Below, one piece after another: positions 559 to 20,210 of a DNA stretch of 21,813 nucleotides (positions within the stretch are counted from its first letter, which is position 1; every line of letters starts with the position of its first letter). Location of the stretch: the IMG/VR virus record IMGVR_UViG_3300045999_012180, positions 1-21,813 of that record, one strand, 5' to 3'. Position numbers and translations under genes: made by a program. The notes below the pieces were generated by a model, which was not told the DNA's origin, did not search any database, and worked only from the letters and a program-made list of their open reading frames with translations. This DNA is from a virus.

Positions 559-566
559 ATATTTAT
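559..566 (+). promoter_or_regulatory. ATATTTAT late-promoter-like motif before the 938-aa fibre gene
   Basis: ATATTTAT lies 67 bases before the ATG at 626, just after the previous stop. It is one of eleven copies in front of genes in this window. No -35-like sequence is shared between copies, as in T4 late promoters, which need only a -10 octamer. Function as a promoter is inference. Confidence 0.6.
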
Positions 567-570
567 ACAC

Positions 571-605
571 GGCTTACATAAGCCAAAGTATTAGAGGTAT
601 ATACC
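571..605 (+). promoter_or_regulatory. Two inverted repeats in the leader of the 938-aa fibre gene
   Basis: GGCTTA-CA-TAAGCC at 571-584 can fold as a small hairpin, and GGTATATACC at 596-605 is a perfect 10-base palindrome. Both lie between the ATATTTAT motif and the start at 626, so they would be in the 5' leader of the mRNA. They could stabilise the transcript or affect initiation. Function is not known. Confidence 0.45.
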
Positions 606-625
606 GTTTAAATTGATCCATACAT

Positions 626-3442
626 ATGGCTGTTAACATTGAACTGAAACGTAGTGCGGTTCCTGGTAAGGTGCCGACCACTGGTTCCCTAAATTTAGGA
701 GAAATTGCCATCAATACTTTTGATGGTAAAGCATACTTTAAAAAGGACGATGGCACACAGTCAATTATAGAATTAGCTACTACTTCTGGATCCTCAGCAA
801 CCTCTTCATATGCTCTAACATCTTCTCTTCCTCTTCAAGGTGTTGTTACTGCTTCTGCTGTTAATACAACTATTACTTTTACAAAAGGAGACGGAACTAC
901 ATTTAGTGTTACAACTTCTCAATCTGGATCTGTAGCTTCAGCATCATATGCTGATTTTGCAGTATCAGCATCATATGCTTTAAGTGCATCTAATGCACAA
1001 ACAGCATCATTTGTATTAAATGCTGTTTCATCATCGTATGCAACAACTGCCTCTTCAGCAGATAATTTTACTGTAAGAGGTACATTAACGGCTCAAACAA
1101 TTGTAGCCCAAACTATTACATCATCTACTGAATTTATAACTGGATCAACTAAATTTGGTACTCAATTAACAGATACACACCAGTTTACTGGATCAGTATC
1201 AATAACTGGTAGTTTAGGTATAAATGGTGTTGATTATACTTCAACATCAGCTTCATTTGATACTAGAATTATAAATAATAGTGCTAGTATTGCAGCACTA
1301 TCAGCTTCATTTAATGGATTTAGTGGATCATTCAATACAGGATCATTTACAGGATCCTTTAATGGTCAATTTACAGGTTCATTACTTGGAACAGCATCAT
1401 ATGCTACTAACGCTAATACTGCCTCTTATGTCTTAAATGCTGTAAGCTCTTCATTTGCTAGTACAGCTTCGTTTGTAGAAAATGCACAAACAGCAAGCTA
1501 TGTTTTAAATGCAGTAAGTGCTTCATTCGCTAGTACAGCATCCTTCGTTCAAAATGCAGTAACTGCCTCTTACGTCTTAAATGCGGTATCAAGCTCATTT
1601 GCTTCTACAGCATCTTATGTTAATCCACTTAACCAAGCAGTAGTAGTATCTGGATCTTTAACAGTAAGTGGTTCTACTAACTTTGTAGGATCTACAGGCA
1701 CAACATTATTTTCAGCCAATGCTGATACTTTAACCTTTACAGGTTCAATTTTTACAAGTGGATCTATTGTATCAACAGGTAGTTTAAGTATAAGCAGCAT
1801 AACAAGTTCATTACTTGGAACTGCTTCGTTTGCTACTCAAGCATTAACAGCATCTTATGCATTGAATGCTTTAAGTTCATCATATGCCCTAACAGCATCA
1901 TATGCAGAAAACATTCCTGCTACAGCATCTTATGCTTTACAAGCATTAAGTGCATCGTTTGCTTTAACAGCATCATACGTTGCAAATGCCTCTTCATTTC
2001 CATTTACTGGAAGTGCAATTATAACCGGAAGTTTAGTTGTAACAGGATCTGTTAGCTCAACAGGTGGCTTTACAGGATCATTATTAGGAACCGCTTCGTT
2101 TGCTAACAATGCTACTTCAGCATCAAATGCTTTAACAGCATCTTATGTGTTGAATGCAGTAAGTAGCTCGTTTGCAACTAGCGCCTCAAATGCTACTACA
2201 GCATCATATGTTTTAAATGCAGTAAGCTCATCATTTGCTTCAACAGCATCATATATTAATCCTTTAAATCAACTAGTTATAATAACTGGCTCTCTTATTC
2301 AAGGATTAGAGGGAAATATAGCGACAGGAGAATACTCACATGCTGAGGGAAGTATTACTAAAGCAACAGGAGACTACTCGCATGCTGAAGGAGATAATAC
2401 CCAAGCAAAAGGAAATTATTCACATGCTGAAGGTCAAGAAACAATAGCATCCGGATCTTATTCACATGCGGAGGGGTATCAAACAATAGCATTAGCCAAT
2501 CATCAACACGTACAGGGCCAATTTAACGCTGTATCATCCGTACCCTCCGCTTTTATTGTAGGTAATGGAACTGACAATAGTAATAGATCAAACTTAATAT
2601 ATGCTCATGATTCTACAGTTGAAATAACAGGATCATTAGAAGTAAATGGAGGTATAACAGGATCATTACAAGGTACAGCAAGCTGGGCTAATAATGCTAC
2701 AAGTGCATCATTCGCTAGTACAGCATCGTTTGTTCAGAATGCTCAAACAGCTTCTTATGTATTAAATGCAGTAAGTGCATCGTTTGCATCAACAGCATCG
2801 TTTGTTCAAAATGCTGTTTCATCTTCATTTGCTACTACAGCTTCATTTGCAACACAAGCCGCAAATGCTACAAGTGCTTCATTCGCATTAACAGCATCTT
2901 CAGCAGATAACTTTACCGTAAGAGGTACACTTACAGCACAAACAATTGTAGCCCAAACTATTACATCATCTACTGAATTTATAACTGGATCAACTAAATT
3001 TGGAAGTATAATTACAAATACTCACCAATTTACAGGTAGTGTAAGTATTAGTGGTTCTTTATCTGTATTCGAGGGAGTAATAAATAATTTAACTGCCTCT
3101 AATGCTGTAACGGCATCATATGCTTTAACAGCATCCTTTGTTCCTGGATTAAATTTATCTCAAATTTCAACAGGAAGCATTGTTGCTAGTGTAGATGTAG
3201 ACCCAAGTAATTTATTCCTAATAAAATCAGGAAGTACTCAATATTTTAACATTTCTAGTAGTGGAAATACCACACTTAGTAGTGATTTATTTATAATTAA
3301 AAACTTTACAACACAACAACCCGTAGTAACAGTTAGTCAGAGCATTGTACAATTTGCAACTCAATCAACTTCTCCAACAGGTATTGCTCCTAATGGAGGT
3401 TTCTGGTTTACTTCTGCTGATTTCTATGTGGGTCTTGACTAA
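626..3442 (+). CDS. Large repetitive tail-fibre-like protein (938 aa) with SHAEG repeats
   Basis: Residues 1-55 (IELKRSAVPGKVPTTGSLNL then GEIAINTFDGKAYFKKDDG) match an N-terminal segment I recognise from many phage tail fibres, where it probably anchors the fibre to the particle. The rest is almost only Ser, Ala, Thr, Gly, Asn, Val and Phe. It has 15-residue units of the type SFASTASFVQNAVSA, SITGSL turns, and two copies of a module with TVRGTLTAQTIVAQTITSST (DNA 1061-1216 and 2905-3060). Around residues 564-635 are four SHAEG repeats about 15 residues apart, resembling YadA-head or Hep_Hag beta-roll units. The C-terminus (NGGFWFTSADFYVGLD) is a short distinct cap. No S74 chaperone domain is visible. 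ATG is preceded by A/T-rich sequence without Shine-Dalgarno. It is likely a trimeric fibre; which receptor it binds is unknown. Confidence 0.85.
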   Translation: MAVNIELKRSAVPGKVPTTGSLNLGEIAINTFDGKAYFKKDDGTQSIIELATTSGSSATSSYALTSSLPLQGVVTASAVNTTITFTKGDGTTFSVTTSQSGSVASASYADFAVSASYALSASNAQTASFVLNAVSSSYATTASSADNFTVRGTLTAQTIVAQTITSSTEFITGSTKFGTQLTDTHQFTGSVSITGSLGINGVDYTSTSASFDTRIINNSASIAALSASFNGFSGSFNTGSFTGSFNGQFTGSLLGTASYATNANTASYVLNAVSSSFASTASFVENAQTASYVLNAVSASFASTASFVQNAVTASYVLNAVSSSFASTASYVNPLNQAVVVSGSLTVSGSTNFVGSTGTTLFSANADTLTFTGSIFTSGSIVSTGSLSISSITSSLLGTASFATQALTASYALNALSSSYALTASYAENIPATASYALQALSASFALTASYVANASSFPFTGSAIITGSLVVTGSVSSTGGFTGSLLGTASFANNATSASNALTASYVLNAVSSSFATSASNATTASYVLNAVSSSFASTASYINPLNQLVIITGSLIQGLEGNIATGEYSHAEGSITKATGDYSHAEGDNTQAKGNYSHAEGQETIASGSYSHAEGYQTIALANHQHVQGQFNAVSSVPSAFIVGNGTDNSNRSNLIYAHDSTVEITGSLEVNGGITGSLQGTASWANNATSASFASTASFVQNAQTASYVLNAVSASFASTASFVQNAVSSSFATTASFATQAANATSASFALTASSADNFTVRGTLTAQTIVAQTITSSTEFITGSTKFGSIITNTHQFTGSVSISGSLSVFEGVINNLTASNAVTASYALTASFVPGLNLSQISTGSIVASVDVDPSNLFLIKSGSTQYFNISSSGNTTLSSDLFIIKNFTTQQPVVTVSQSIVQFATQSTSPTGIAPNGGFWFTSADFYVGLD
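1061..1216 (+). repeat. Fibre module A, copy 1
   Basis: This encodes DNFTVRGTLTAQTIVAQTIT, then SSTEFITGSTKFG, then THQFTGSVSITGSL. Bases 1094-1158 are identical, 65 of 65 by eye, to 2939-3003 in the same gene. Related copies occur in the 1111-aa gene. Confidence 0.85.
1390..1620 (+). repeat. 15-residue fibre repeat array in the 938-aa gene
   Basis: Successive units of the type TASFVQNAVSASFAS or TASYVLNAVSSSFAS, about 45 bases each. Protein units are nearly identical, but codons differ from unit to unit. Further, less regular arrays lie near 1830-2270 and 2690-2890. Confidence 0.8.
2317..2530 (+). repeat. SHAEG repeat block
   Basis: Four tandem units of the form YSHAEG-x3-TxAxG (residues about 564-635), followed by a degenerate HQHVQG unit. 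This pattern is typical of YadA-head-like or Hep_Hag beta-rolls in trimeric surface fibres. The His and Glu residues stand out against the otherwise uncharged shaft. Confidence 0.75.
2905..3060 (+). repeat. Fibre module A, copy 2
   Basis: Second copy of the module in the 938-aa gene. It shares a 65-base exact match (2939-3003) with copy 1, followed by the diverged SIITNTHQFTGSVSISGSL. The exact block suggests recent recombination or gene conversion. Confidence 0.85.
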
Positions 3443-3446
3443 TTCA

Positions 3447-3454
3447 ATATTTAT
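3447..3454 (+). promoter_or_regulatory. ATATTTAT late-promoter-like motif before the 531-aa fibre gene
   Basis: ATATTTAT lies 37 bases before ATG 3484, five bases after the upstream stop. It is followed by TAACCCCTAATTA at 3462-3474, which also occurs in the leader of the sheath gene. Confidence 0.6.
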
Positions 3455-3483
3455 TAATAGATAACCCCTAATTAATTCAACAA

Positions 3484-5079
3484 ATGGCAACTTGGAAAAA
3501 AGTCATTGTATCAGGTAGTAGTGCAGAATTAGCTGCATTAAAAGTAGATAACCTTACCTCCGGTCAAGTAGTAATCGGTGGTGGCAGTGCAGGTAACTTA
3601 ACTACTACTGCAATCAACGGTACAGGAAATATAGTAGCTACTACAAACGCTACTAACCTAGTACACTCTGGATCATTTAGTGGTTCATTTACTGGAGATT
3701 TAACATCTGTCTTAGCAGCTGGTTCACAACCTAACTTTGTAGCTTATAATATATCTACTGGAAAATTCACATATGCAGGAACAGGTTCATTTACTGCTGC
3801 TACTGCTTCTTATATAACTTCTTCCAATGTTTTTGGTCCATTTGGATCAAATAGTATTTTAACAGCTTCATTTGCTACAACTGCTTCATTTGTACAAAAT
3901 GCTCAAACAGCATCCTTTGTTCAAAATGCAGTTAGTGCTTCATTTGCTAGTACTGCTTCATTTGTACAAAATGCAGTTAGTGCTTCATTCGCTTCAACAG
4001 CATCCTTTGTACAAAATGCAGTTAGTGCTTCATTTGCATCAACTGCCTCTTCAGTTAATGCTTTAAACCAAGCTGTAATAATTAGTGGTTCATTTACAGT
4101 ATTTACAGGCAGTGCAGTTGAACTTCAAGTTACTAACACAGGTGTTAGAATAGGTAATATAGTTACCGATGCTCACACAGTAACAGGTTCATTCAATGTT
4201 AGTGGAAGTGTAGTTATAACTGGTTCATTACAAGCAACCTCAATTACAGCCTCTATATTTGGTACTTCGTCATTTGCTACAAGTGCTTCATTTGCAACTA
4301 CAGCATCGTTTGCTAGTACAGCTTCATTTGTTCAAAATGCTGTATCTGCATCATTCGCTAGCACTGCTTCATTTGTACAAAACGCTGTATCTGCTTCATT
4401 CGCAACTACAGCTTCATTTGCTAGCACAGCTGCTCAAGTAAATAATGCCTTAACATTTGGTTTAGGTATATCAAGCAGTGCTGCTACTTATAACGGTTCA
4501 ACTGCCGTAACATTCCATGTTTCTGGTGCTTCTAATTTATCAAATAATATCATACCAAAATGGAATGGAACTGGATTTACCAACTCAAACGTTACTGATA
4601 CTGGTACCCAAGTTCAAATTGGTGCTGGTGCTACTAGTGGATTAAGTGTAGCAGCTGGTGGTATTAACGTAACTGGTAATTCAACTTTCAATAGTAATTT
4701 AACTGTACAAGGTGACTTAACAGTTAATGGTACTGCATCGTTTGTTAACTCAACAAACTTATATGTTAAAGACCAATTTATTACAATTAATAGTGGTTCA
4801 AGTACCTTAGCTGATTCTGGTATTATTTCTCAATACAATACTGCAGGTTCTGGATCTGCATTCTTCCTTGAAGCTGGCTCAGCCGGTACTTATGGAAGAT
4901 GGGCAGTAGCTTATGATTTAATTGGTACCTCAACTTCAGCAACTGCTGATGAATTTATGGTAACAGCTAAAATTAATCAAGCTTCCAACCCATCTGCAGC
5001 ACCAACTTGGGGAAGTACAGGAAACGGATCAGGTAATATGTGGGTAACAAACGCTGGTGATATATTTATATACGCGTAA
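3484..5079 (+). CDS. Repetitive tail-fibre-like protein (531 aa)
   Basis: It starts MATWKKVIVSGS, a peptide shared with the 1075-aa fibre (MPNWKKVIVSGS), so the two may attach to the same site or partner. Residues about 125-197 and 255-320 are 15-residue repeats (SFASTASFVQNAVSA). Between them lies one copy of module B (VELQVTNTGVRIGNIVTDAH, DNA 4081-4212). The C-terminal 200 residues are less repetitive, with LTVQGDLTVNGTASF, then TNLYVKDQFITINSGSSTLA, and ending in MWVTNAGDIFIYA. This looks like a folded tip. Almost no charged residues occur in the shaft. A virion fibre or appendage is the best reading, and its exact location is unknown. It is probably transcribed from its own promoter. Confidence 0.82.
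   Translation: MATWKKVIVSGSSAELAALKVDNLTSGQVVIGGGSAGNLTTTAINGTGNIVATTNATNLVHSGSFSGSFTGDLTSVLAAGSQPNFVAYNISTGKFTYAGTGSFTAATASYITSSNVFGPFGSNSILTASFATTASFVQNAQTASFVQNAVSASFASTASFVQNAVSASFASTASFVQNAVSASFASTASSVNALNQAVIISGSFTVFTGSAVELQVTNTGVRIGNIVTDAHTVTGSFNVSGSVVITGSLQATSITASIFGTSSFATSASFATTASFASTASFVQNAVSASFASTASFVQNAVSASFATTASFASTAAQVNNALTFGLGISSSAATYNGSTAVTFHVSGASNLSNNIIPKWNGTGFTNSNVTDTGTQVQIGAGATSGLSVAAGGINVTGNSTFNSNLTVQGDLTVNGTASFVNSTNLYVKDQFITINSGSSTLADSGIISQYNTAGSGSAFFLEAGSAGTYGRWAVAYDLIGTSTSATADEFMVTAKINQASNPSAAPTWGSTGNGSGNMWVTNAGDIFIYA
3859..4060 (+). repeat. 15-residue fibre repeat array in the 531-aa gene
   Basis: Tandem 45-base units. For example, a block beginning TGTACAAAATGCAG at 3963 recurs at 4008. 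Units encode ASFVQNAVSASFAST. A second array with the same unit is at about 4255-4440. Confidence 0.8.
4081..4212 (+). repeat. Fibre module B, copy 1
   Basis: Encodes FTVFTGSAVELQVTNTGVRI then GNIVTDAHTVTGSFNVSGS. It is one of five copies in the window: one in this gene, two in the 1075-aa gene and two in the 1111-aa gene. Confidence 0.85.
5062..5069 (+). promoter_or_regulatory. ATATTTAT motif inside the 3' end of the 531-aa gene
   Basis: ATATTTAT sits within the last codons of the fibre gene (reading D-I-F-I-Y-A-stop) and 38 bases before the next start at 5100. This matches the spacing of the intergenic copies. If functional, it drives the 5100-5563 pair. Confidence 0.45.
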
Positions 5080-5099
5080 TAAAGTTTTAAAAATTAGTT

Positions 5100-5327
5100 A
5101 TGGGTTTTAATTTAAAGAATGTTGTGATAGGTAATCAACCACAACCTAGCCCTGAGCAATCGTTGTCTTCTGCTCCTTCCTCAAATTCTCCTGAATTAGA
5201 GTTGGAAGAGCTACAATTTTTACTTAAAATGCTAGGGAATGCCGATTTAAAAGGGCATCAGGTTGAAATGTTTTATAATATGATTATCAAATTACAAAAT
5301 TTATACTTACAAAAATCTAAAAAATAG
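5100..5327 (+). CDS. Small helical protein, unknown function
   Basis: 75 residues. The N-terminal third is a Pro/Ser/Gln-rich linker (QPQPSPEQSLSSAPSSNSPE). It is followed by acidic and hydrophobic helical sequence (LELEELQFLLKMLGNADLKG) and a Lys-rich end. No domain recognised. It is followed two bases after its stop by another small helical protein (5330), so the pair is probably one operon placed between two fibre genes. Roles such as fibre-assembly chaperone or internal virion protein are possible but unsupported by a motif. No Shine-Dalgarno precedes the ATG. Confidence 0.7.
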   Translation: MGFNLKNVVIGNQPQPSPEQSLSSAPSSNSPELELEELQFLLKMLGNADLKGHQVEMFYNMIIKLQNLYLQKSKK

Positions 5328-5329
5328 TT

Positions 5330-5563
5330 ATGGATATTTTCTCTATTGATTTTACTCACAATGAGATCGCATTTATTCGCCAATGCCTTGATTTACCTAG
5401 TATATCAGGACGTGACGCTAAGTTCTTAGCTGGTCTGCAAAGTAGAATAGAAAATGAATTAATTCAGATCGAACAATTGAAACAAGCAGAATCTCAAAAA
5501 AAAACAGAAGAACTACAAGTAATCCTAGAAGCAGAGCAAACAAAAGCGAATAATAAAAAATAA
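5330..5563 (+). CDS. Small coiled-coil protein, unknown function
   Basis: 77 residues. The first half (MDIFSIDFTHNEIAFIRQCL, then DLPSISGRDAKFLAGLQSRI) is compact and probably helical. From about residue 42 the sequence is Glu/Gln/Lys-rich with coiled-coil character (IEQLKQAESQKKTEELQVIL) and it ends in a basic tail. The start is two bases after the stop of 5100-5327 and has no promoter motif of its own, so it is likely co-transcribed. I do not recognise the family. Its position beside fibre genes suggests a role in fibre assembly (inference only). Confidence 0.7.
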   Translation: MDIFSIDFTHNEIAFIRQCLDLPSISGRDAKFLAGLQSRIENELIQIEQLKQAESQKKTEELQVILEAEQTKANNKK

Positions 5564-5567
5564 TCAC

Positions 5568-5575
5568 ATATTTAT
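5568..5575 (+). promoter_or_regulatory. ATATTTAT late-promoter-like motif before the 1075-aa fibre gene
   Basis: ATATTTAT five bases after the preceding stop and 100 bases before ATG 5668, the longest leader in the window. Confidence 0.55.
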
Positions 5576-5588
5576 ACACACAGCACTG

Positions 5589-5656
5589 TTGGCCTGAATA
5601 AGGAAGTAGGCATATACACGGCATAAGTGTATGTATCTAACCGCAGTATAAACTGT
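5589..5656 (+). promoter_or_regulatory. Structured leader of the 1075-aa fibre gene
   Basis: Three short stems can form. GCCT pairs with AGGC (about 5592-5611). ATACAC (5614-5619) pairs with GTGTAT (5627-5632). CAGT pairs with ACTG around ATAA near 5643-5654. The string ATACACGGC at 5614-5622 also occurs in the leader of the 938-aa gene (565-573). Possible mRNA-stabilising or translational control element; unproven. Confidence 0.4.
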
Positions 5657-5667
5657 ACAAAAATACT

Positions 5668-8600
5668 ATGCCGAATTGGAAAAAAGTCATTGTATCTGGC
5701 TCGAACGCCAGTGTAAATAGTTTATATGCACAAACTAGTATTACAGCTAGTGTATTTTCTGGTTCGGCCTTTACCGGTTCATTATTAGGTACAGCATCAT
5801 ATGCTTCATATGCATTAACAGCCTCATCAGCACAAAATGCTTCGGACATATTAATATATGTTAAGAATAGTTCAGGTGCTCAAATTAATAAAGGCAGGGT
5901 TGTAAGAATCACAGGGGCAGTAGGTGATAATCCATTAATTGGAACCGCTTCTTACTTTAATGATAATGAATCAGCTAATACTTTAGGTATTACTTATGAA
6001 AATATTGCTAATGATTCTTTTGGTTATGTAATAACTGAAGGTACATTACTTGGTATTAATACTGATGCTTTTACAGCAAGTCAATTAATATATTTAGGAG
6101 ATACTGGTAGTATTATAGGTACCGCTCCTGTAGCTCCACTCCATGCAGTACGTTTAGGTCAAGTATTACGATCACAATTAAATAATGGTTCAATTTATGT
6201 TCGTATAGATAACGGATATGAATTAGGAGAATTACATGATGTAAGAGATACTACAACAACGGGATCATATGGTGATTTATTAGTTAAAAGTGGTAGTATT
6301 TGGATTAATTCTAAACAATTAACTGGATCTTACGGATTAACAGGATCATTACAAGCAACTTCATTTACCGGTTCATTATTAGGTACAGCATCATTTGCCT
6401 TAAATGCTTTAACAGCATCGTTTGTTCAAAATGCAGTATCAAGCTCATTTGCCTCAACAGCATCGTTTGTAACAACAGCACAAACAGCATCTTATGTGTT
6501 GAATGCAGTAAGTGCATCGTTTGCTAGTACGGCTTCGTTTGTTAATACATTAAATCAACCTGTTATTATATCTGGTTCACTAACAGTATTTACAGGCAGC
6601 GCGGTTGAATTCCAGGTTACAAACACAGGCGTTAGAATGGGTAATATAATTACCGATGCTCACACAGTAACAGGTTCATTCAACGTAAGTGGAAGTGTTA
6701 CATTAACAGGATCATTATCTCTTTTATCAGGAAGTATAACTGCTACTTCTATTCTTAATCCTCATACTATAACTAATACTAGAAGTTTAAGTAATGGAGG
6801 TGCTCTATTTATATATAGTCAAAATTCTACTTCTAGTTTTACAGACAGAGGATTGACTATATCTTCTGCTCCTGGTGCTTTTTACGATTCACGTGTTGAT
6901 ATTATAAGGGGCAGATCAGATTATTTTGCAGGATTAAAAGTTAATGGTGTAGGAGAAACAGGATCAGCTGCTATCCCTATTTGGTTATTTGGTCAACACC
7001 CAGAATACGGGATAGGAAGTAGTTGGAGATTTGGTTTAGTAGCATCTAATGGTACTGCTAATAATGATGTTATAAATGTTACTCCTTCTACACTCAATAT
7101 ACAAATTGGAAATAGAACAGATGCTGGATATAAGTTAGATGTACAAGGAACTTTAAGAAACACAACAGACGCTTATCTCAATACAACTTCTGGTAATACT
7201 TCTATAGGTAAAACTACAGCAAACGCTAAATTAGATGTTAATGGATCAGCTGTAATATCAGGCTCCTTTACAGTCATCACAGGCAGCGCAGTTGAATTCC
7301 AGGTTACAAATACTGGTGTTAGAATAGGTAATGTAATTACTGATACACACACAATAACAGGCTCCCTTAACGTAAGTGGTAGTGTAACTGCAACTAATTT
7401 TACAGGCTCTCTCTTCGGAACATCATCTTGGGCAAACAATGCTACTACAGCTTCTTACGTCTTAAATGCTGTTAGTTCTTCGTTTGCCTCAACAGCGTCG
7501 TTTGTAGCTAATGCTCAAACAGCAAGCTATGTATTGAACGCTGTTAGCTCTTCATTCGCAACTAGTGCTTCTACTGCTCAAACAGCATCATATGTTTTAC
7601 AAGCAGTATCAAGCTCGTTTGCTTCCACAGCATCGTTTGTAACAACAGCTCAAACAGCATCGTATGTTTTAAATGCTGTATCTGCTTCATTCGCATCAAC
7701 AGCATCTAGTGTTAATACATTAAACCAAAATGTAATAATAACAGGTAGCTTAACAGTAGGAGCTACTTCAGTTGGAGCAAATGAAAATACATTAATATTA
7801 GGACCAGCTCCAGGAGGTGGTGCAGGTGAAGGTGGACAGTTATTATTACAAGCTAAAGGAGATAGTGGATATACCTCAGCTTCAATGCTTGATAACTGGC
7901 AAAACCAAACTAGATTATTAAGAGGTACCAATGCAGGAAGTGATGCTGTAATAGCTAGTTTCAATATGCACTCTAAACAAGTTCAGTTCCCTGCATACAC
8001 AGGTTCAGGTGCATTCTCTGGAACAGCAACTGCTAATTTATCAGTTGATTCTGGTGGTAATATTATAACAACAGCAATCGGATCTGCTTTAACTGGTGGT
8101 TCTACAAACTATATAGCTAGATGGGCTAGCTCAACTACATTAACTACTGGATCATTATTTGATAACGGAACTAATGTAGGAGTAGGAAACCAATCCCCAT
8201 CTTATAAACTAGATGTATCTGGTGATATAAGATCTACAGGTGCTGTTTATGCTAATGCAAACGGCACAATGTATTTTAGAGGTGGTGATGATGCTGAGCT
8301 CTGGGATATAAACGTTGCAAACACAGTAGGTCTTTACGGACAACAAGATCAAACAGTAGGATCTTTAAAATTAGGTAGTGGTGGTGGAACAATTTCAGGA
8401 AGAAGCGGCAATATTGGTATTGGTACTATAAATCCAACCTCAGCTTCATTACAAGTGAATGGTAATGTATTTGCTACTTCATTTACTGGTTCATTACTTG
8501 GAACAGCATCGTTTGCTACTACAGCTACAAGTGCTTCATTTGCAGCAACATCATCATTTGCCGCTAGTGGATTTACAGTTGGTATATCTCAAATACAAAC

Positions 8601-8895: not shown

Positions 8896-8906
8896 AATAG
8901 AATAAT

Positions 8907-9092
8907 ATGATTTACGAAGTACAAATGCAATTTATTCCAGGTAACGATCAAATTTGGGTAGCACATCTTAACCCAAATGATCCAATTTACCAATATGATA
9001 ATTTTGCTGATGCGCAAGCAAAAGCAACTGAATTACAAGATAATGATCCATCTGGAAGACAGTATCGTGTAACACAATTAGCTGCAGAGTAA
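8907..9092 (+). CDS. Small phage protein, unknown function
   Basis: 61 residues, MIYEVQMQFIPGNDQIWVAH then LNPNDPIYQYDNFADAQAKA. It reads as a small alpha/beta protein with a beta strand start and a helix around DNFADAQAKATELQDND, ending YRVTQLAAE. The ATG lies 11 bases after the fibre stop. A degenerate motif (ACATTTAT at 8884-8891) overlaps the end of the fibre gene, so either read-through or a weak promoter could express it. Normal base use and tight packing support a real gene. No function assigned. Confidence 0.7.
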   Translation: MIYEVQMQFIPGNDQIWVAHLNPNDPIYQYDNFADAQAKATELQDNDPSGRQYRVTQLAAE

Positions 9093-9094
9093 TA

Positions 9095-9102
9095 ATATTT
9101 AT
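9095..9102 (+). promoter_or_regulatory. ATATTTAT late-promoter-like motif before 9119
   Basis: ATATTTAT two bases after the stop at 9092 and 24 bases before ATG 9119, the shortest spacing in the set. It would leave only a very short leader. Genes 9119 to 14966 follow without another intact copy. Confidence 0.6.
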
Positions 9103-9118
9103 ATCAAATAAATAACAA

Positions 9119-9403
9119 ATGAGAGCAATTCAACCAGTAAACATTTGGGCAGGTGGCCAAAATGTGCAAGCTAATAACATTAATATGTATGTTATTAATG
9201 ATGATTTATCATCATCCGCTACATTCTATTATCAGTTATTAAATGTAACAACTGATGGTGAAGGTAACACATCATCTCAACAATTAGCACAAGGTAATTT
9301 AACAATCAGTGGAACTGATTATGATAATTGGAATGCAACCCCAGACATCAACGATGCTGCTTATGTATGGGCTGCTGGTCAATTGAATTTAACTTTAGTT
9401 TAA
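9119..9403 (+). CDS. Small beta-rich phage protein, unknown function
   Basis: 94 residues beginning MRAIQPVNIWAGGQNVQANN. It contains a run typical of a beta sandwich (INMYVINDDLSSSATFYYQL) and ends AAYVWAAGQLNLTLV. The pattern looks like a small virion accessory protein that I have seen near phage fibre genes, but I cannot name a family. It is the first gene after the promoter motif at 9095, and the 1111-aa fibre follows 44 bases after its stop. A structural or fibre-accessory role is inference from location. Confidence 0.72.
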   Translation: MRAIQPVNIWAGGQNVQANNINMYVINDDLSSSATFYYQLLNVTTDGEGNTSSQQLAQGNLTISGTDYDNWNATPDINDAAYVWAAGQLNLTLV

Positions 9404-9414
9404 TATAAACCCCC

Positions 9415-9438
9415 GTCTCAGGGACAGTGAACTGAGGC
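9415..9438 (+). promoter_or_regulatory. Hairpin in the gap before the 1111-aa fibre gene
   Basis: GTCTCAG (9415-9421) pairs with CTGAGGC (9432-9438), one T-G pair included, around a 10-base loop and ten bases before ATG 9448. No ATATTTAT copy is present in this gap. It could be an mRNA processing or stability element, or a weak attenuator. There is no T-run, so a classical terminator is unlikely. Confidence 0.45.
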
Positions 9439-9447
9439 AGTACATAA

Positions 9448-12798: not shown

Positions 12799-13503
12799 AT
12801 GGCACAGTTAGGTAATAATTCAACTTTTAATAGAAGTCTGCTTAATGCAACTGGAGATCGTACCGTAAAAGGTTATCATTCACGTACAGTATTTTCATAC
12901 GCTACAGAAAATCTTATAAATTTATATAACACTGATGTCACAAACGAGGCCGATACAGAGGGTATTCAATTTTTAATAGACAATTCAGGAACTAATGATT
13001 ATCATGGAACCCATATTATACCAGCATATTATTGGCGTCCGGGAAAAGTATTTAGAGTAAGCGGTACTATTATAGTCGATGATACAAACGGTATTGGTGT
13101 TGAGGAGCTTAACATGAGATTTGGATTAAATGCTGGAGGATTAATTAATCCTGCTTGGTTAGCAATTCAAAATAATAACAATAACCACACTTTTTCCAAC
13201 GCCGATCCCTCGGGACCTCTGCCAGTAGATTTTTCCTGTGATATATTTTGCTCACGTGTTGAGACTGATGCTACAAATGCATATTTCGGAGCTTCTGGAT
13301 ATTACCAGTATACTTATGCAAATTTTAATAGTGTTGGAGAAGATAGAGGAAGTATACACGTGCCTGTGTGGTCTAGTACATTTGCGACAACAGGCTTAGA
13401 GGAAGTATACACCGGACAATCAACTATCATGTTTAACCTGTTCGGCACTACCACCGATCCAACTGTGTATATTACAAGACTAACAATTGAAGAATTAGCA
13501 TAA
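12799..13503 (+). CDS. Virion surface-type protein, paralogue 1 of 3
   Basis: 234 residues. It shares an ordered set of blocks with the next two genes: TFNR, GYHSRTVFSYA, HGTHIIPAYYWRPGK, LNMRFGL, LAIQNNNNNH, a Cys pair in DFSCDIFCS, GYYQYTYANFNS, VPVWSS, TIMFNLFG and the C-terminal LTIEELA. The alternating hydrophobic pattern and lack of signal peptide suggest a beta-sandwich virion protein. It follows the 1111-aa fibre by 15 bases and has no promoter motif, so it is likely co-expressed with that fibre. Three related proteins in tandem beside fibres suggest tip, receptor-binding or head-fibre proteins. That role is inference. I do not know the family name. Confidence 0.82.
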   Translation: MAQLGNNSTFNRSLLNATGDRTVKGYHSRTVFSYATENLINLYNTDVTNEADTEGIQFLIDNSGTNDYHGTHIIPAYYWRPGKVFRVSGTIIVDDTNGIGVEELNMRFGLNAGGLINPAWLAIQNNNNNHTFSNADPSGPLPVDFSCDIFCSRVETDATNAYFGASGYYQYTYANFNSVGEDRGSIHVPVWSSTFATTGLEEVYTGQSTIMFNLFGTTTDPTVYITRLTIEELA

Positions 13504-13504
13504 A

Positions 13505-14206
13505 ATGCCAGGTAATCAATATATTAATACTTTTAATAGAGCAAATTCTAATGGAGTTTCTCCTGGATTTTATTCTAGAACTCTGTTTACATGGGTTACT
13601 CCAAGTGATGGATATGAATTAAAAGATACAGTCTGGACAGATACACTAGACGGAGATGGGTTAGATTATCTATCAACACAAAAACCAGAGCAGTGTTACG
13701 GAGGTTATATATTTCCTCCCAACTACTGGACGGCAGGAAAAACTATTCGTTTTAGAGGCACTTTTTTTGTAGCTAGCGATGATACTGATCAAATATTTAA
13801 TTTAAGATTCGGGTTACAAGAGTATAATACGCCGTCTGTACAATGGCTAGCAATTCAAAATAACGACAATAACCATATTTTCGCTGAAGGAGCTAATACA
13901 GGAGCTAATGTTTACATTCCCATAAGTTTTAACTGTTTATTGATGTGTAGTGTTTTAAGTGCTGAAGATCTATCTTGGTTTACAGCTAACGGATTTTATA
14001 AATACTGCACTACTCCCAACGCTAGCTCTACAAATAAATCAGTACCTACCGTACCAGTATGGGGAAATTTTAACGGAACCAACGGAGTTTCAAAAGGTGT
14101 AGATTTGTTATTTACAACCCAACAAAGCAGTCTAATGATGAATTGCTATGGTTCCACTGTTAAAAATATAAGATTAGTAAATTTAACAATAGAAGAGCTA
14201 CTATAG
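13505..14206 (+). CDS. Virion surface-type protein, paralogue 2 of 3
   Basis: 233 residues with the same block order: TFNRANSNG, GFYSRTLFTWV, YGGYIFPPNYWTAGK, FNLRFGL, LAIQNNDNNH, SFNCLLMCS, ANGFYKYC, VPVWGN, SLMMNCYG and LTIEELL. It is the most diverged of the three in the YYWRPGK block (NYWTAGK). The start lies one base after the preceding stop (TAA-A-ATG), indicating coupled translation. It has two additional Cys residues (QCYGG and KYCTT) besides the conserved C-x3-C pair. Function as for paralogue 1: probable surface or receptor-binding role by context only. Confidence 0.82.
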   Translation: MPGNQYINTFNRANSNGVSPGFYSRTLFTWVTPSDGYELKDTVWTDTLDGDGLDYLSTQKPEQCYGGYIFPPNYWTAGKTIRFRGTFFVASDDTDQIFNLRFGLQEYNTPSVQWLAIQNNDNNHIFAEGANTGANVYIPISFNCLLMCSVLSAEDLSWFTANGFYKYCTTPNASSTNKSVPTVPVWGNFNGTNGVSKGVDLLFTTQQSSLMMNCYGSTVKNIRLVNLTIEELL

Positions 14207-14207
14207 A

Positions 14208-14966
14208 ATGGCTGCTATAACAAATAATACAACTTTTAATAAAAATAACAACAACGGACAGTTTCCTGGTTTTTATTCACGTGTCCTTTTTAGCTATGCT
14301 CCTTATTTAAATGAGGTGCCTGAACTACTCCAAAACAACACTTCAGACTGGGTTGTTGATTCCGGATATGATGGAATAGGTGAACTACTATCAGGAAATG
14401 CCCCATTATGCCACGGATCCAACATACTCCCCGCTTATTATTGGCGACCGGGAAAAACAATTAGAGTAACAGGAGATTTTTCTGTTAATATACCTTTACA
14501 AGAAGGTCTTTTTCAAAATAAAATATTGAATCTTCGTTTTGGCTTAATAGAGACCGCTACTCCGGCAGCAACATCATTAGCAATTCAAAATAATAATAAT
14601 AACCATGGATTAGCTTTTAGTGTAGGAACGGGAGGTTCGGCTTATGATTATATTCCTATCCATTTTGAATGTAATATTATATGTTCTACAATAAACCAAG
14701 CAAATGATCCCCCATGTACTTTTTATTCTAATGGGTTTTACTACTATGATCATTCTAACTACAATAGCGCCGGAACTAACTACGATAAAAGCGCTGTATA
14801 CGTTCCTGTTTGGAAATCAGCTAACGGCAGTACAACGTTAGGAGACGAATACTACTCAGCATCAACTAAAATAATGATGAATATATACGGCAGTGAAATA
14901 GGAAATGGAGCTGATGGATATGGAGCTGTTTATTTAACAAAATTATTAATAGAAGAATTAGCATAA
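14208..14966 (+). CDS. Virion surface-type protein, paralogue 3 of 3
   Basis: 252 residues, with blocks TFNKNNNNG, GFYSRVLFSYA, CHGSNILPAYYWRPGK, LNLRFGL, LAIQNNNNNH, HFECNIICS, SNGFYYYDHSNYNS, VPVWKS, KIMMNIYG and LLIEELA. It is longer than the other two because of insertions before the HG block (LNEVPELLQNNTSDWVVDSG) and near the C-terminus. The start is one base after a TAG stop (TAG-A-ATG). It ends the presumed 9119-14966 transcription unit. The weak A/T-rich sequence after it shows no convincing terminator. Confidence 0.82.
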   Translation: MAAITNNTTFNKNNNNGQFPGFYSRVLFSYAPYLNEVPELLQNNTSDWVVDSGYDGIGELLSGNAPLCHGSNILPAYYWRPGKTIRVTGDFSVNIPLQEGLFQNKILNLRFGLIETATPAATSLAIQNNNNNHGLAFSVGTGGSAYDYIPIHFECNIICSTINQANDPPCTFYSNGFYYYDHSNYNSAGTNYDKSAVYVPVWKSANGSTTLGDEYYSASTKIMMNIYGSEIGNGADGYGAVYLTKLLIEELA

Positions 14967-15023
14967 AGTAGAGTTAATTTTTTAGTATAATAAAAAAACT
15001 TGGTTGTCTCCTATCTTTGGTAT

Positions 15024-15031
15024 ATATTTAT
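15024..15031 (+). promoter_or_regulatory. ATATTTAT late-promoter-like motif before 15055
   Basis: ATATTTAT 31 bases before ATG 15055. Its position also argues against a longer frame from TTG 15004, which would run through the motif. The remaining sequence of the 14967-15054 gap is A/T-rich with no other feature seen. Confidence 0.6.
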
Positions 15032-15054
15032 ATCAAACAAATAAAAACAAAAAT

Positions 15055-15327
15055 ATGTTAACGTTTATCATCTTAGGCGCATTGAGCGTAATCATTGGTG
15101 TTTGGGCTCTTAACAAAGGCAGCAAAACCACAACTACAACCCCTGCTGAAACTAAAGAAGAAGAACCAGTTGGTTACGAATCAGGTTCATTTGCTTCTAT
15201 TGCTACTGAAGAACCAACTCCAGTTGCTGTTAGTCCAAAGCCAAAGAAAAAAACTTCCAAAAACACAGCTAAAAATGAATCATTAGCTAAAATGGAAGCT
15301 AAACCTAAAAAAGCTAAAAAAGCCTAA
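15055..15327 (+). CDS. Small single-pass membrane protein with Lys-rich tail
   Basis: 90 residues from ATG 15055; an upstream in-frame TTG at 15004 is rejected because the promoter motif lies after it. Residues 1-18 (MLTFIILGALSVIIGVWA) form one membrane segment. It is followed by a Thr-rich linker (KTTTTTPAE), an acidic stretch (KEEEPVGYE) and a strongly basic C-terminus rich in Lys, Ala and Pro. The shape would fit a small anchored phage protein such as a holin- or spanin-like factor, but no lipobox or known motif is present, so I assign no role. Its TAA overlaps the ATG of the next gene by one base, so 15055, 15327 and 15569 form one operon. Confidence 0.75.
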   Translation: MLTFIILGALSVIIGVWALNKGSKTTTTTPAETKEEEPVGYESGSFASIATEEPTPVAVSPKPKKKTSKNTAKNESLAKMEAKPKKAKKA

Positions 15328-15875: not shown

Positions 15876-15883
15876 ATATTTAT
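15876..15883 (+). promoter_or_regulatory. ATATTTAT late-promoter-like motif before the sheath gene
   Basis: ATATTTAT 51 bases before ATG 15927, followed at 15891-15903 by TAACCCCTAATTA, the same string as in the leader of the 531-aa fibre gene. Confidence 0.62.
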
Positions 15884-15926: not shown

Positions 15927-18050
15927 ATGTCAGAAGTAATTCTCTCCCCTGGTGTATTCCAGAACGAAACCGATCAGAGTTTATATACTCAAGCGCCAGC
16001 AGCTCTTGGTGCAGCTATTGTAGGACCTACAGTAGGTGGTCGTCCATTCGTACCAACGTATGTTACTACTTATACACAATATTTATCACTTTTTGGTGAT
16101 ATTTTTAAAAGTGGTAGCTACTATTACGAATATTTTACATCACAAGCTGCTCGTGAATATTTCCAAAATGGTGGACAATCATTATTAGTAACTAGAATTA
16201 TTAGTGGTTCATCTGGTATTAGTACTTATGCTCAAGCTAATGTTATTAGCCAAGCTACTGTAGGTGATAAATTTGCTACTGGTAGCGGTACTGTATTATT
16301 AGCATCAACTACTGCTAATAGTGAGTTTAGAATTGTAGGTAGTGGTTATCCACTATTTAGATTCATTGCTGCTGCTGCTCCAATTCCAGCGAATGATGTT
16401 GATGGTAATCTTTATTACTTTGCCTCTGGTTCTTCTTTGCAAATTACTTTAGATAATTTAACTGGATCTATTAATAGTGCTTTATCTGGTGCAGCTGCTC
16501 TTTCAGGATATAATTTAATTCAGGCTACAAATACAGCAACTACAATTATATTATCAGGTTCTCAAGCAGGTACAACAGTAAACGGATTTACTTTCCAAAC
16601 TGGATCTGCTTCAACCTTCTCAACTTTACTTACTTTAGCCGGTGGTACTAATATTTCTACTCAAGCTACTTCGTTTACTCTTGAAACATTAGCATGGGGT
16701 GACCAAATGAACAACACTTCTAGTTTAACAGCAGGAGCTTTAGCTAGTGGTTCAGCTCAAAACGTACGTTTTGAAGTAACTAATGTAAATACCGGATCTA
16801 ACGGTGGTACATTTACAATTGTAGTTCGTCGTGGTGATGATAATGATGCTCAAAAGAATATCTTAGAAACATGGGCTAATGTAAGTTTAGATCCACAATT
16901 ACCTAACTATATTGCTCGTGTTATTGGTGATTTAAAACCAGTATTTAATGTATCTACCGGACAAGTTGATTTTGAAGGTACATATGCTAACCAATCATTA
17001 TATGTTCGTGTTGCTTCAGTAACTACTCCAAACGTAGATTCAATTGACAACAACGGTAATTTTAAAACTTCTTTATATGCTTCTACCTTACCATTAGTAG
17101 GTAGTGGCTCATATGGTGGTTCATTTAATGGTGGTGTAGCTGATACTAACCTTCCAAAGAACATGAATGAAAACATTACTGCAGCTAATATTCAAGGTTT
17201 CCATCCAGACGATTACAATCGCGCTTTCTTATTATTATCAAACAAAGATGAATATCAATTTAATGTATTAATGGCTCCAGGTGTTGGTTTAGATACCGCT
17301 GCTGCTGATAATATGATTGCTACTTGTGAAGGTAGAGGTGATGCTATTGCAATTGTAGATAATGGTGTTTACACTAACGCTACAGTAAACGGAGCTGTTC
17401 AAAATGCTGCCGGTGCAAATAGTAACTATGCTGCTACATATTTCCCTTGGGTTCAATTGTTTAGCTCTAACTTAGGTAAAACTGTATGGTGTCCTCCATC
17501 AACAGTAATCGGTGGTGTATTAGCATTCAACGACCAAGTAAGTGCTGAGTGGTTTGCCCCAGCAGGTTTAAATCGTGGTGGTATTCCATCTGTAATCAGA
17601 GCTCAATTCCGCTTATCTCAAACAGACCGTGATACATTATATACAGGAAATGTTAACCCATTAGCTACATTCCCAGGAACTGGAGTATGTGTATGGGGTC
17701 AGAAAACATTACAGCGCAAACAAACATCTCTCGATCGCGTAAACGTTCGTCGTTTGTTGATTGCATTAAAAGATTTCATTGGTGGTGTTGCTCGCAACTT
17801 AGTATTCGAACAGAATACAGCTGTTACTCGTAACCGCTTCTTAAGCCAAGTAAACCCATATCTTGAGTCTGTAACTCAACGTCAAGGTTTATTTGCTTAC
17901 AGAGTAGTAATGGATGATACTAACAACACACCTGATGTAATCGATAGAAATCAGTTAGTAGGTCAGATTTTCATCCAACCAACTAAGACTGCTGAATTCA
18001 TTATCTTGAACTTTAACTTAACTCCAACTGGCGCTACATTCCCTGCATAA
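15927..18050 (+). CDS. gp18: Contractile tail sheath protein (T4 gp18-like)
   Basis: 707 residues, against 659 in T4 gp18. The N-terminus MSEVILSPGVFQNETDQSLY is the typical sheath start (SPGV near the N-terminus). Next comes GAAIVGPTVGGRPFVPTYVT and a region with AREYFQNGGQSLLVTRI, characteristic of sheath proteins. The middle, about residues 95-280, is a Ser/Thr/Gly-rich variable insertion exposed on the tail surface in relatives. The C-terminal third has NVRRLLIALKDFIGGVARNL, VFEQNTAVTRNRFLSQVNPY and FAYRVVMDDTNNTPDVIDRN, the polymerising core of the family. Arg is mostly CGT/CGC, unlike the fibre and tape measure genes, which suggests selection for high expression. It has its own promoter motif. 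Confidence 0.95.
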   Translation: MSEVILSPGVFQNETDQSLYTQAPAALGAAIVGPTVGGRPFVPTYVTTYTQYLSLFGDIFKSGSYYYEYFTSQAAREYFQNGGQSLLVTRIISGSSGISTYAQANVISQATVGDKFATGSGTVLLASTTANSEFRIVGSGYPLFRFIAAAAPIPANDVDGNLYYFASGSSLQITLDNLTGSINSALSGAAALSGYNLIQATNTATTIILSGSQAGTTVNGFTFQTGSASTFSTLLTLAGGTNISTQATSFTLETLAWGDQMNNTSSLTAGALASGSAQNVRFEVTNVNTGSNGGTFTIVVRRGDDNDAQKNILETWANVSLDPQLPNYIARVIGDLKPVFNVSTGQVDFEGTYANQSLYVRVASVTTPNVDSIDNNGNFKTSLYASTLPLVGSGSYGGSFNGGVADTNLPKNMNENITAANIQGFHPDDYNRAFLLLSNKDEYQFNVLMAPGVGLDTAAADNMIATCEGRGDAIAIVDNGVYTNATVNGAVQNAAGANSNYAATYFPWVQLFSSNLGKTVWCPPSTVIGGVLAFNDQVSAEWFAPAGLNRGGIPSVIRAQFRLSQTDRDTLYTGNVNPLATFPGTGVCVWGQKTLQRKQTSLDRVNVRRLLIALKDFIGGVARNLVFEQNTAVTRNRFLSQVNPYLESVTQRQGLFAYRVVMDDTNNTPDVIDRNQLVGQIFIQPTKTAEFIILNFNLTPTGATFPA

Positions 18051-18066: not shown

Positions 18067-18074
18067 ATATTTAT
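18067..18074 (+). promoter_or_regulatory. ATATTTAT late-promoter-like motif before the tail tube gene
   Basis: ATATTTAT 34 bases before ATG 18101 and 16 bases after the sheath stop. A CCCCTAAT string overlaps its 5' side, similar to the string in two other leaders. Confidence 0.62.
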
Positions 18075-18100: not shown

Positions 18101-18586
18101 ATGCCAGTATTAAATCCTAACGAAATCATGTTTACAGCGTTTGAACCTAAAGTTCAGAATCGCTTTATCATGTATATTGATGGTATCCCAGCTTATTTGA
18201 TTAAAAAGGCCAGTGCTCCTGGATTCGAAGCTGGAGAAATTATTTTAGATCATATCAACGTTTATCGTAAAGTTAAGGGTAAAGTTCGTTGGAACGATAT
18301 GACCTTAGAATTATACGATCCTGTAACTCCAAGTGGTGCTCAAGCTGTAATGGAATGGGCTCGTTTAGCACACGAATCAGTAACTGGCCGCGATGGTTAC
18401 TCCGACTTCTACAAAAAGAGATTAACATTAGATATCTTAGGTCCAGTAGGTGATATAGTAGGAGAGTGGATTATCATGGGTGCTTATGTTAAAACAGCTA
18501 CCTTTGGTGAATACGATTGGAGTGCTGATGCTGCTATTAACTTATCAGTTACAATCGCTATGGATTACTGTATATTGAACTTCTAA
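18101..18586 (+). CDS. gp19: Tail tube protein (T4 gp19-like)
   Basis: 161 residues, close to T4 gp19 at 163. Typical features are RFIMYIDGIPAYLIKKASAP near the N-terminus, KGKVRWNDMTLELYDPVTPS in the middle, and a C-terminal half with KRLTLDILGPVGDIVGEWII and YDWSADAAINLSVTIAMDYC. It forms the rigid tube inside the sheath, and its position directly after the sheath gene is the classic order. Arg codons are almost all CGT/CGC. A strong hairpin terminator follows 24 bases after the stop, so the tube gene is probably a separate, abundant transcript. Confidence 0.96.
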   Translation: MPVLNPNEIMFTAFEPKVQNRFIMYIDGIPAYLIKKASAPGFEAGEIILDHINVYRKVKGKVRWNDMTLELYDPVTPSGAQAVMEWARLAHESVTGRDGYSDFYKKRLTLDILGPVGDIVGEWIIMGAYVKTATFGEYDWSADAAINLSVTIAMDYCILNF

Positions 18587-18643: not shown

Positions 18644-18651
18644 ATATTTAT
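18644..18651 (+). promoter_or_regulatory. ATATTTAT late-promoter-like motif before 18670
   Basis: ATATTTAT 26 bases before ATG 18670, directly after the tube-gene terminator. Confidence 0.62.
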
Positions 18652-18669: not shown

Positions 18670-19128
18670 ATGCCTTTATTTCTATCACAATCATTTGGAC
18701 AAACTGCCTTAGACCTAGAAAATCCAGGCCCTTATGGTGGTTTTAATACATTAGATACAATAACCGAATATCCTGCTACTAATACAGGAACTCCAACAAG
18801 TGATGCTAACCCAGGAGCTCCAACCAATTTTAACCAATCATATGTTCCTACTAACACATATGTAGAGGATATGAGAAATAATGGTAGCAGATTCTTTAGA
18901 TATGGAAATAGCGATACTCCATATGATATATTTGATGCAACAAATCTAGATACAGAAAAACCAGGAGTAGATGGTGGTATTCCTTATGACCAAATAAAAG
19001 ACCCAACTGTATATCCAGTAACAACACAAGCAGTAGATGCTACTACATCAGGGTTTAATGTTATATCAGGATCAGGAGCAAGTAAATATACTCAAAGATA
19101 TAGTGCAGCTAGTCCTTACTTTCAATAG
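18670..19128 (+). CDS. Unknown Pro/Thr/Asn/Tyr-rich protein between tube and baseplate genes
   Basis: 152 residues, starting MPLFLSQSFGQTALDLENPG. It contains PYGGFNTLDTITEYPATNTG, then TPTSDANPGAPTNFNQSYVP and DMRNNGSRFFRYGNSDTPYD. It has low complexity, is rich in Asn, Thr, Pro and Tyr, and lacks a clear hydrophobic core, signal peptide or membrane segment. It may be a largely extended virion protein. It has its own terminator-insulated promoter motif, between tube and gp26-like genes, which suggests a tail or baseplate component (inference). I do not recognise the family. Confidence 0.72.
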   Translation: MPLFLSQSFGQTALDLENPGPYGGFNTLDTITEYPATNTGTPTSDANPGAPTNFNQSYVPTNTYVEDMRNNGSRFFRYGNSDTPYDIFDATNLDTEKPGVDGGIPYDQIKDPTVYPVTTQAVDATTSGFNVISGSGASKYTQRYSAASPYFQ

Positions 19129-19145
19129 TTTTCTTGAAATATTAT

Positions 19146-19153
19146 ATATTTAT
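19146..19153 (+). promoter_or_regulatory. ATATTTAT late-promoter-like motif before the gp26-like gene
   Basis: ATATTTAT 36 bases before ATG 19182, in a very A/T-rich 53-base gap. Confidence 0.58.
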
Positions 19154-19181
19154 ATACACACAAATAAAATAAAATTAGTTT

Positions 19182-19940
19182 ATGGCTGAATTAAAGTTAC
19201 CGACAGAAATGGTTTCATTGCCTTCAAAAGGTTTATTGTACCCAAAAGAATCACCACTTTCAAAAGGTGAAATTGAAATGAAGTATATGACAGCTAAGGA
19301 AGAAGATATCCTTACTAACACTAACTTCATTCGCCAAGGTACCGTTATTGATAAATTATTACAATCATTGATTGTAACTCCAATCAATTATGATGATTTG
19401 TTAATCGGAGATAAAAATGCAATATTGATTGCAGCTCGTATCTTAGGATATGGTGCTGAATATTCATTTAAATATACTGATGAGCGCGGTAAAGAGATTG
19501 ATGCTACTATTGATTTATCTACACTAAGTGAAAAATCATTAGATGAATCATTATTTACAGCCGGTGTAAATGAATTTACTTTTACTTTACCTAAAACAAA
19601 CAACAATATAACGTTTAAGTTATTAACACACGGTGACGAGAAAAAAATTGAAGCTGAAATTAAAGGATTACAAAAAGTAAATCCAAACGGCTCGTTTGAT
19701 GTTACTACCCGCTTAAAGTATATTATTACTTCTATCAATAATGATCGTGATCAGAAAAACATTCGTGATTTTATTGATAATTACTTACTTGCTGCAGAAG
19801 CTAGAGCATTACGTGAGTACTATAATAAAGTACAACCTGACATCAATCTAACATATGTTCCTGAAGATAGTAATTATGTTGGGGAGGGCATAAATGTTCC
19901 AATTTCTCTTAGCTTTTTTTGGCCTGACACCGGAGCATAG
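19182..19940 (+). CDS. T4 gp26-like baseplate hub / tail assembly protein
   Basis: 252 residues. The start ELKLPTEMVSLPSKGLLYPK, followed by EIEMKYMTAKEEDILTNTNF and LLQSLIVTPINYDDLLIGDK, matches the T4-type baseplate protein family that includes gp26 (T4 gp26 is 208 aa), as I remember it. A conserved-looking core GDKNAILIAARILGYGAEYS follows. The C-terminus INVPISLSFFWPDTGA corresponds to the FFWP-type ending of relatives, so the frame is probably complete. Relatives often have a Cys-rich zinc knuckle before this end; none is present here. The last 47 bases overlap the next gene in another frame, across a run of seven T. It probably acts with the tape measure protein in baseplate assembly. 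Confidence 0.78.
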   Translation: MAELKLPTEMVSLPSKGLLYPKESPLSKGEIEMKYMTAKEEDILTNTNFIRQGTVIDKLLQSLIVTPINYDDLLIGDKNAILIAARILGYGAEYSFKYTDERGKEIDATIDLSTLSEKSLDESLFTAGVNEFTFTLPKTNNNITFKLLTHGDEKKIEAEIKGLQKVNPNGSFDVTTRLKYIITSINNDRDQKNIRDFIDNYLLAAEARALREYYNKVQPDINLTYVPEDSNYVGEGINVPISLSFFWPDTGA

Positions 19941-20193
19941 ACCTAACATATTCAAACAAATTCATGAAATTGTATTTCATGGAAATGGTGGATACGATTG
20001 GGAAACCGTTTATCATATGCCTTTATGGTTACGTAGAACTACGTTTAATATAATGAAGGAATACTATGATAATGAAAATAAAGAAATAGAGAATCAAAAC
20101 AATCTATTAAAAAACAAAACAGGTAACAAAAATATATCACGACCAAACATAGCCCCCGCTCCTAACTATATTGCAAAGGCGCCTAAAAAATAG
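19894..20193 (+). CDS. Small baseplate/tail-assembly protein overlapping the gp26-like gene
   Basis: 99 residues from ATG 19894, in the +1 frame relative to the gp26-like gene. MFQFLLAFFGLTPEHRPNIF is followed by KQIHEIVFHGNGGYDWETVY and HMPLWLRRTTFNIMKEYYDN, then a Lys/Asn-rich tail. The block with GGYDWETVY and PLWLRR is a pattern I associate with small proteins encoded between gp26-like and tape measure genes, sometimes called gp51-like hub assembly factors; the name is uncertain. The ATG is preceded by GGGGAGGG inside the upstream gene, the only Shine-Dalgarno-like string near a start here. It may alternatively be a frameshift extension of the upstream protein. Its stop lies inside a terminator stem. 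Confidence 0.75.
   Translation: MFQFLLAFFGLTPEHRPNIFKQIHEIVFHGNGGYDWETVYHMPLWLRRTTFNIMKEYYDNENKEIENQNNLLKNKTGNKNISRPNIAPAPNYIAKAPKK
19911..19923 (+). other. T7 run in the gene overlap, possible frameshift site
   Basis: AGC-TTT-TTT-TGG in the gp26-like frame versus GCT-TTT-TTT-GGC in the downstream frame. A +1 (or -2) slip on the seven T would join SLSFF to GLTPEHRPN. Downstream reading then continues to 20193. The case is weakened by the presence of a good ATG at 19894 and a normal ending of the upstream protein. Confidence 0.3.
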
Positions 20194-20200
20194 GCGCTTT
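20175..20200 (+). terminator. Hairpin terminator overlapping the stop of the small baseplate gene
   Basis: GCGCCTA (20179-20185) pairs with TAGGCGC (20191-20197) around five A, extended by AAA/TTT across a one-base bulge. The stop codon TAG (20191-20193) is part of the stem. The promoter motif begins three bases later. Confidence 0.72.
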
Positions 20201-20202
20201 CA

Positions 20203-20210
20203 ATATTTAT
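20203..20210 (+). promoter_or_regulatory. ATATTTAT late-promoter-like motif before the tape measure gene
   Basis: ATATTTAT 26 bases before ATG 20229 and directly after the terminator stem. Confidence 0.62.

Follow-up and report, generated by a model that had tools for sequence, protein, structure and literature searches.

The molecular details of late transcription have been worked out for T4, and for T4's closer relatives it is known as an in silico motif. The T4 late promoter, TATAAATA, is a −10-only octamer without a −35 box, A/T-rich just downstream and placed before virion genes, and the T4 machinery comprises gp55, gp33 and gp45; the octamer that we describe here appears to share these promoter features. 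Late promoter motifs have also been found in silico upstream of structural genes in KVP40, 44RR, S-PM2 and Aeh1, a placement like that seen here, but these motifs are highly similar to that of T4 or changed at −13/−12 only (PMC2988020), unlike our octamer. The housekeeping (sigma-A) promoter of Bacteroidota consists of TTTG at −33 and TAnnTTTG at −7 (PMC6847099, PMC9723704). The open literature yielded no report of late promoters in Flavobacterium or Bacteroidetes phages, nor of a phage promoter reading ATATTTAT or TATTTAT, a scope that does not prove the absence of an earlier report.

The stretch of DNA that we analysed, here called the window, is a 21.8-kb IMG/VR fragment carrying tail sheath, tail tube and T4-type baseplate genes. 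Its closest isolate is Flavobacterium phage vB_FspM_immuto_2-6A (hereafter immuto; complete genome NC_055915, 160 kb), with a sheath that is 46% identical over its length. The leaders of the window are A-rich and lack Shine-Dalgarno sequences, the pattern to be expected with Bacteroidota hosts (PMC6847099), suggesting that the phage infects a member of this phylum.

A preliminary description of the window proposed that an octamer standing before eleven genes, ATATTTAT, is the late promoter of this phage. All eleven copies, and the one further copy that it had placed within the sheath gene, are present on the + strand (Table 1), and the reported distance of 24–100 bases to an ATG agreed at all eleven sites when recomputed. 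Counting both strands gave 12 copies on the + strand and 0 on the − strand (P = 5e-4 for the skew); dinucleotide shuffles of the window, counted on both strands, yielded a mean of 4.78 copies and a maximum of 9, never attaining 12. The claim that ten of the 12 copies lie in the scant intergenic DNA was confirmed (993 non-coding bases, 4.6% of the window; P = 2e-12), and ATATTTAT ranked first in the window when all octamers were ordered by intergenic versus coding frequency. By comparison, the + strand holds 3 copies of TATAAATA, none of them ahead of a gene start. The octamers cut the window into eleven units with a plausible gene at the head of each, in keeping with the division into transcription units first suggested, and the copy within the sheath gene is probably a chance occurrence.

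Table 1. Copies of the octamer in the 21.8-kb window, with the genes that follow them
Feature	Coordinates	Strand	Details
Putative late promoter octamer	559..566	+	67 bases before 938-aa tail-fibre-like gene 626-3442
Putative late promoter octamer	3447..3454	+	37 bases before gene 3484-5079
Putative late promoter octamer	5062..5069	+	38 bases before gene 5100-5327, then 5330-5563
Putative late promoter octamer	5568..5575	+	100 bases before gene 5668-8895 (and 8907-9092)
Putative late promoter octamer	9095..9102	+	24 bases before gene 9119-9403
Octamer	15024..15031	+	31 bases before small gene, ATG 15055
Putative late promoter octamer	15876..15883	+	51 bases before tail sheath gene
Tail sheath gene	15927..18050	+	PF04984, PF17482
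Octamer within sheath gene	16079..16086	+	
Putative late promoter octamer	18067..18074	+	34 bases before tail tube gene 18101-18586
Putative late promoter octamer	18644..18651	+	26 bases before gene 18670-19128
Putative late promoter octamer	19146..19153	+	36 bases before T4-type baseplate gene 19182-19940 (PF12322)
Putative late promoter octamer	20203..20210	+	26 bases before gene from 20229, cut by contig end

Individual sites differ in their surroundings. The octamer at 5062 overlaps the last codons (3′ end) of the preceding gene, that at 9095 probably serves the run of genes up to 14966, and terminator-like hairpins precede the octamers at 18644 (gcgcttgtc..gacaggcgc-tttcttt) and 20203. 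The relevant ATG of the site at 15024 lies inside a longer ORF that the ORF listing begins at a TTG; here TTGGTTG stands 24 bases upstream, at the host −33 distance, and is conserved, together with TATATATTTATAT. In ~30 relatives this hybrid layout is retained ahead of a small gene with a membrane-protein-like product (window 15000–15055); it resembles a late promoter overlaid on a host-type one and may function at both early and late times. It is the one conserved exception to the lack of a common −35 box, an observation that otherwise holds.

Further elements accompany the octamers or lie between them. The leader after the octamer at 5568 is unusually long and carries a conserved element: long post-octamer leaders before fibre-like genes share GGAAGTAGGC and a following hairpin (window 5576–5667, contig L004 2688–2775, immuto 137886–137954), with no Rfam match. 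A different hairpin leader, such as CTCTGT-GGACAGTGAA-ACAGAG, lies directly before fibre genes (window 9410–9447; contigs L015 2520–2560, L020 85–125 and L021 3695–3735); in three relatives, though not in the window, an octamer lies 25–26 bases ahead of the loop. The L015 copy had no Rfam match, and Rfam searches of the window, the immuto late region and the leader elements returned nothing credible. CCCCTAAT/CCCCTAA occurs at window positions 3462, 15898 and 18061, close to the octamers at 3447, 15876 and 18067, and CCCCTAAT is enriched in intergenic DNA. Four large, fibre- or adhesin-like genes of TASYVLNAVSSSFASTASFV-type repeats occupy 626–12783, with octamers between them, and three adjacent genes of similar length with visibly related products (12799–14966) are tandem paralogues, the first of which has no Pfam or PHROG match.

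The same pattern recurred in 80 related contigs (851 kb, 6.3% of it intergenic), which contained 414 sense copies of ATATTTAT, 372 of them intergenic, and 46 antisense copies, 12 of them intergenic. Among all octamers, ATATTTAT was the most enriched in intergenic over coding DNA, at ~6.9 copies per kb of intergenic sense versus ~0.05 per kb of coding sense DNA; the equal density in coding DNA that would have spoken against a promoter is thus not found. Under a first-order Markov model of intergenic DNA, 16.7 sense copies were expected and 368 seen, while 24.3 antisense copies were expected and 7 seen, so that the reverse complement is, if anything, avoided. Applied to T4 75–115 kb, the same ranking placed ATAAATAT and TATAAATA on top, in the T4 direction, which shows the method to be capable of detecting late promoters and our motif to be distinct from that of T4.

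In the complete immuto genome we found two putative promoter classes standing before different genes. Counting genes with an upstream gap, and with the limits of the structural module set manually from the record's annotation, [AC]TATTTAT precedes 22 of 32 structural-module genes versus 13 of 77 others (P = 5.4e-7), and a host-type class precedes none of the 32 and 13 of the 77. Sites of this second class read AGTTG, 19–20 bases, TATATTTAGGTATCAATAATTAAAA or TAnnTTTAGGTATCAATAATTAAAAC, then ATG, and are concentrated at 60–77 kb, before many small hypothetical genes. In general form the class is TTG, ~20 bases, TAnnTTTAGG, with TTG at all its sites, which is close to the Bacteroidota sigma-A promoter, A replacing G-5. 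The split by kind of gene is the main argument for the word ‘late’; promoter activity and late timing are both inferred. It counts against this reading that no octamer stands immediately ahead of the immuto major capsid gene and that some non-structural genes bear one. Two more near-complete genomes (161,982 and 167,382 bases) contain both classes, the nn of TAnnTTTAGG varying in each as in the host consensus. One of these two has nearly all its genes on the other strand and its motifs likewise, which, along with one site in a second phage, Mel-JY01, agrees with the promoter reading. The host-type class, the putative early one, was noted at immuto 60–77 kb and in the records G030 and G032.

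The spacing of the octamer points the same way. In the relatives, its distance to the ATG has a median of 32 bases (interquartile range 27–37), and its distances from the preceding stop codon are widely spread. Directly after the octamer, 95% of non-redundant sites have A or T, and purines occupy bases 5 and 6 at 93% and 81%, versus ~60% nearby, a peak that would be the signature expected of a start site. This purine peak, with the lack of a common −35 box, makes a −10-type late promoter the best reading.

Were the octamer instead a variant −7 box read by host sigma-A, perhaps with a phage activator and with no dedicated phage sigma, its TTT core, common to the host TAnnTTTG box, would be accounted for, as would the TTG at the host −33 distance at the conserved site at 15024. 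However, the octamer lacks the other marks of the host promoter, as T-12 shows no conservation, A invariably occupies the G-5 position, and the −33 element is missing: TTG stands at that position at 1 of 10 window sites, 2 of 41 immuto sites and 12 of 138 non-redundant relative sites, in contrast to all sites of the host-type class. The identical octamer also occurs in a cyanobacterial phage, and we consider recognition by sigma-A unlikely.

That phage, a host INDEPENDENCE case, is Microcystis phage Mel-JY01, whose record gives a cyanobacterial host; its leaders are Shine-Dalgarno-like, and a family B DNA polymerase and a clamp-loader subunit are annotated. The top octamer of its structural region is again ATATTTAT, which precedes 12 of 31 structural versus 8 of 86 other genes (P = 5e-4) and, before genes, is sense in 20 cases and antisense in 2. 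Its whole-genome strand bias is mild (51 to 39) because coding copies dominate in this AT-rich genome; the signal lies in intergenic DNA. The translation signals thus changed with the host while the octamer did not, which favours a phage-encoded reader and argues against a function in leader RNA, and the like placement of the octamer in a Microcystis phage indicates that the reader is probably a phage factor rather than a host sigma.

An RNA function, in which the octamer would act within the 5′ leader as a signal for mRNA processing or translation rather than as a promoter, fits its position near start codons in A-rich leaders, but we hold it to be very improbable. The octamer is unaltered where leaders have Shine-Dalgarno sequences, its spacing to the ATG runs from ~10 to >100 bases, many operon-internal genes have none, and it is often located behind a terminator, a point at which transcription has to begin anew. 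Of 136 sites, 13 have a terminator-like hairpin on their upstream side in the sense direction, and 3 show the opposite arrangement. Least credible of all is a T4-type late promoter (TATAAATA) facing the opposite way and driving antisense RNA. In its favour, the reverse complement ATAAATAT overlaps the T4 consensus, and TATAAATA can be read on the − strand at 7 of the 11 window sites. Against it, the octamer keeps its spacing to the ATG downstream rather than to the stop upstream, the purine peak and A/T preference lie on its sense side, terminators precede it in the sense direction, and the T4 match is broken by the common variant CTATTTAT.

Candidates for the reader were sought among relatives of T4 gp55, the family of which is phrog_234. 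The sole phrog_234 match in immuto is gp118 (78174–78872, 232 residues, annotated as hypothetical), relatives of which lie on at least 600 IMG/VR contigs, with 57–91% identity among those kept. In the phage collection, gp118 occurs only in immuto, Mel-JY01 (36%) and LR756508 (40%), which are also the phages with the closest sheaths. Profile–profile alignment (hhalign) of the gp118 family with gp55 gave a probability of 88.9% and an E of 2.4e-6 over 106 columns; single family members matched gp55, phage sigma and Sigma70_r2 models weakly, and the only Sigma70_r2 match in LR756508 is its gp118 homologue. The nearest viral-model neighbours of the predicted gp118 structure (pLDDT 75) are mostly phage sigma factors, and several sigma factors are among its weak neighbours in the PDB, where no match fell below an E of 0.001. 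The family profile returned unrelated weak hits only from PDB sequences, and a search of viral contigs for relatives of the Mel-JY01 and LR756508 homologues gave no useful result.

Taken together, these matches make gp118 the likely reader of the octamer, albeit with some reserve: LR756508 carries the homologue, yet neither ATATTTAT nor another clear motif was found in the 58 kb examined. In its candidate make-up, gp118 joins an N-terminal part resembling sigma-2 to an additional, helical C-terminal part. The protein is longer than gp55, and the extra part recalls the functional gp55–gp33 fusions that have been described (PMC2988020), a lead only. None of 27 records of sheath relatives, all fragments that need not reach the gene, carries gp118, and the fragmentary state of the contigs kept the window's own sigma gene out of sight. 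Searches for a gp45-type sliding clamp (PF02916, PF09116) found no match in immuto or Mel-JY01, with a positive T4 control. The clamp coupling on which T4 centres is therefore missing, replaced or too diverged to be recognised; both phages may have a clamp diverged beyond the reach of this search.

We put the probability that intergenic ATATTTAT constitutes a late promoter class read by a phage sigma, with early genes on host-type promoters, at roughly 0.85. Each intergenic copy would act as a −10-type element for a gene or short operon ~25–50 bases downstream, with the group consensus [AC]TATTTAT followed by A or T and no need of a −35 box, and transcription is predicted to start at the purine 5–6 bases past the octamer. 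A phage-encoded sigma, for which the gp118 family is the candidate, would bind host RNA polymerase and recognise the octamer, switching on the virion genes late, and early genes would use the TTG, ~20 bases, TAnnTTTAGG promoters. The sequence, strand, position, gene-class association and conservation of the octamer are direct observations. On genome comparison, its assignment as the late promoter class of a T4-like lineage infecting mainly Bacteroidota is well supported, and a phage-made sigma factor is probably what reads it.

The late-promoter proposal of the preliminary description is supported by the octamer ranking, strand and position relative to start codons, as well as by the preference for structural genes that two complete phage genomes show, the lack of a −35 box and the separate early-type class. 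Its likening of the motif to T4 late promoters stands for architecture, including a predicted start site at about equal spacing, and the related isolate immuto encodes a gp55-like candidate; the likeness does not extend to sequence, as [AC]TATTTAT in the sense direction is nearly the reverse complement of the T4 motif, or to the gp45-type clamp, not found in immuto. The putative late promoter of this lineage is T4-like in architecture but has another sequence and probably other machinery.

More tentatively, and at somewhat less than even odds, a widespread T4-like lineage may possess its own late sigma class, gp118, together with a −10-only [AC]TATTTAT promoter, working without the T4 sliding clamp in immuto-type members and kept across a change of host between Bacteroidota and Cyanobacteria. 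These phages raise the question of what couples late genes to replication in the apparent lack of a T4-type clamp, and because the group includes a cultured isolate, direct testing is possible. For an abundant, little-studied group of environmental tailed phages, the analysis provides a promoter sequence, its early counterpart and a sigma candidate, and the octamer allows transcription units to be predicted in metagenomic phage genomes.
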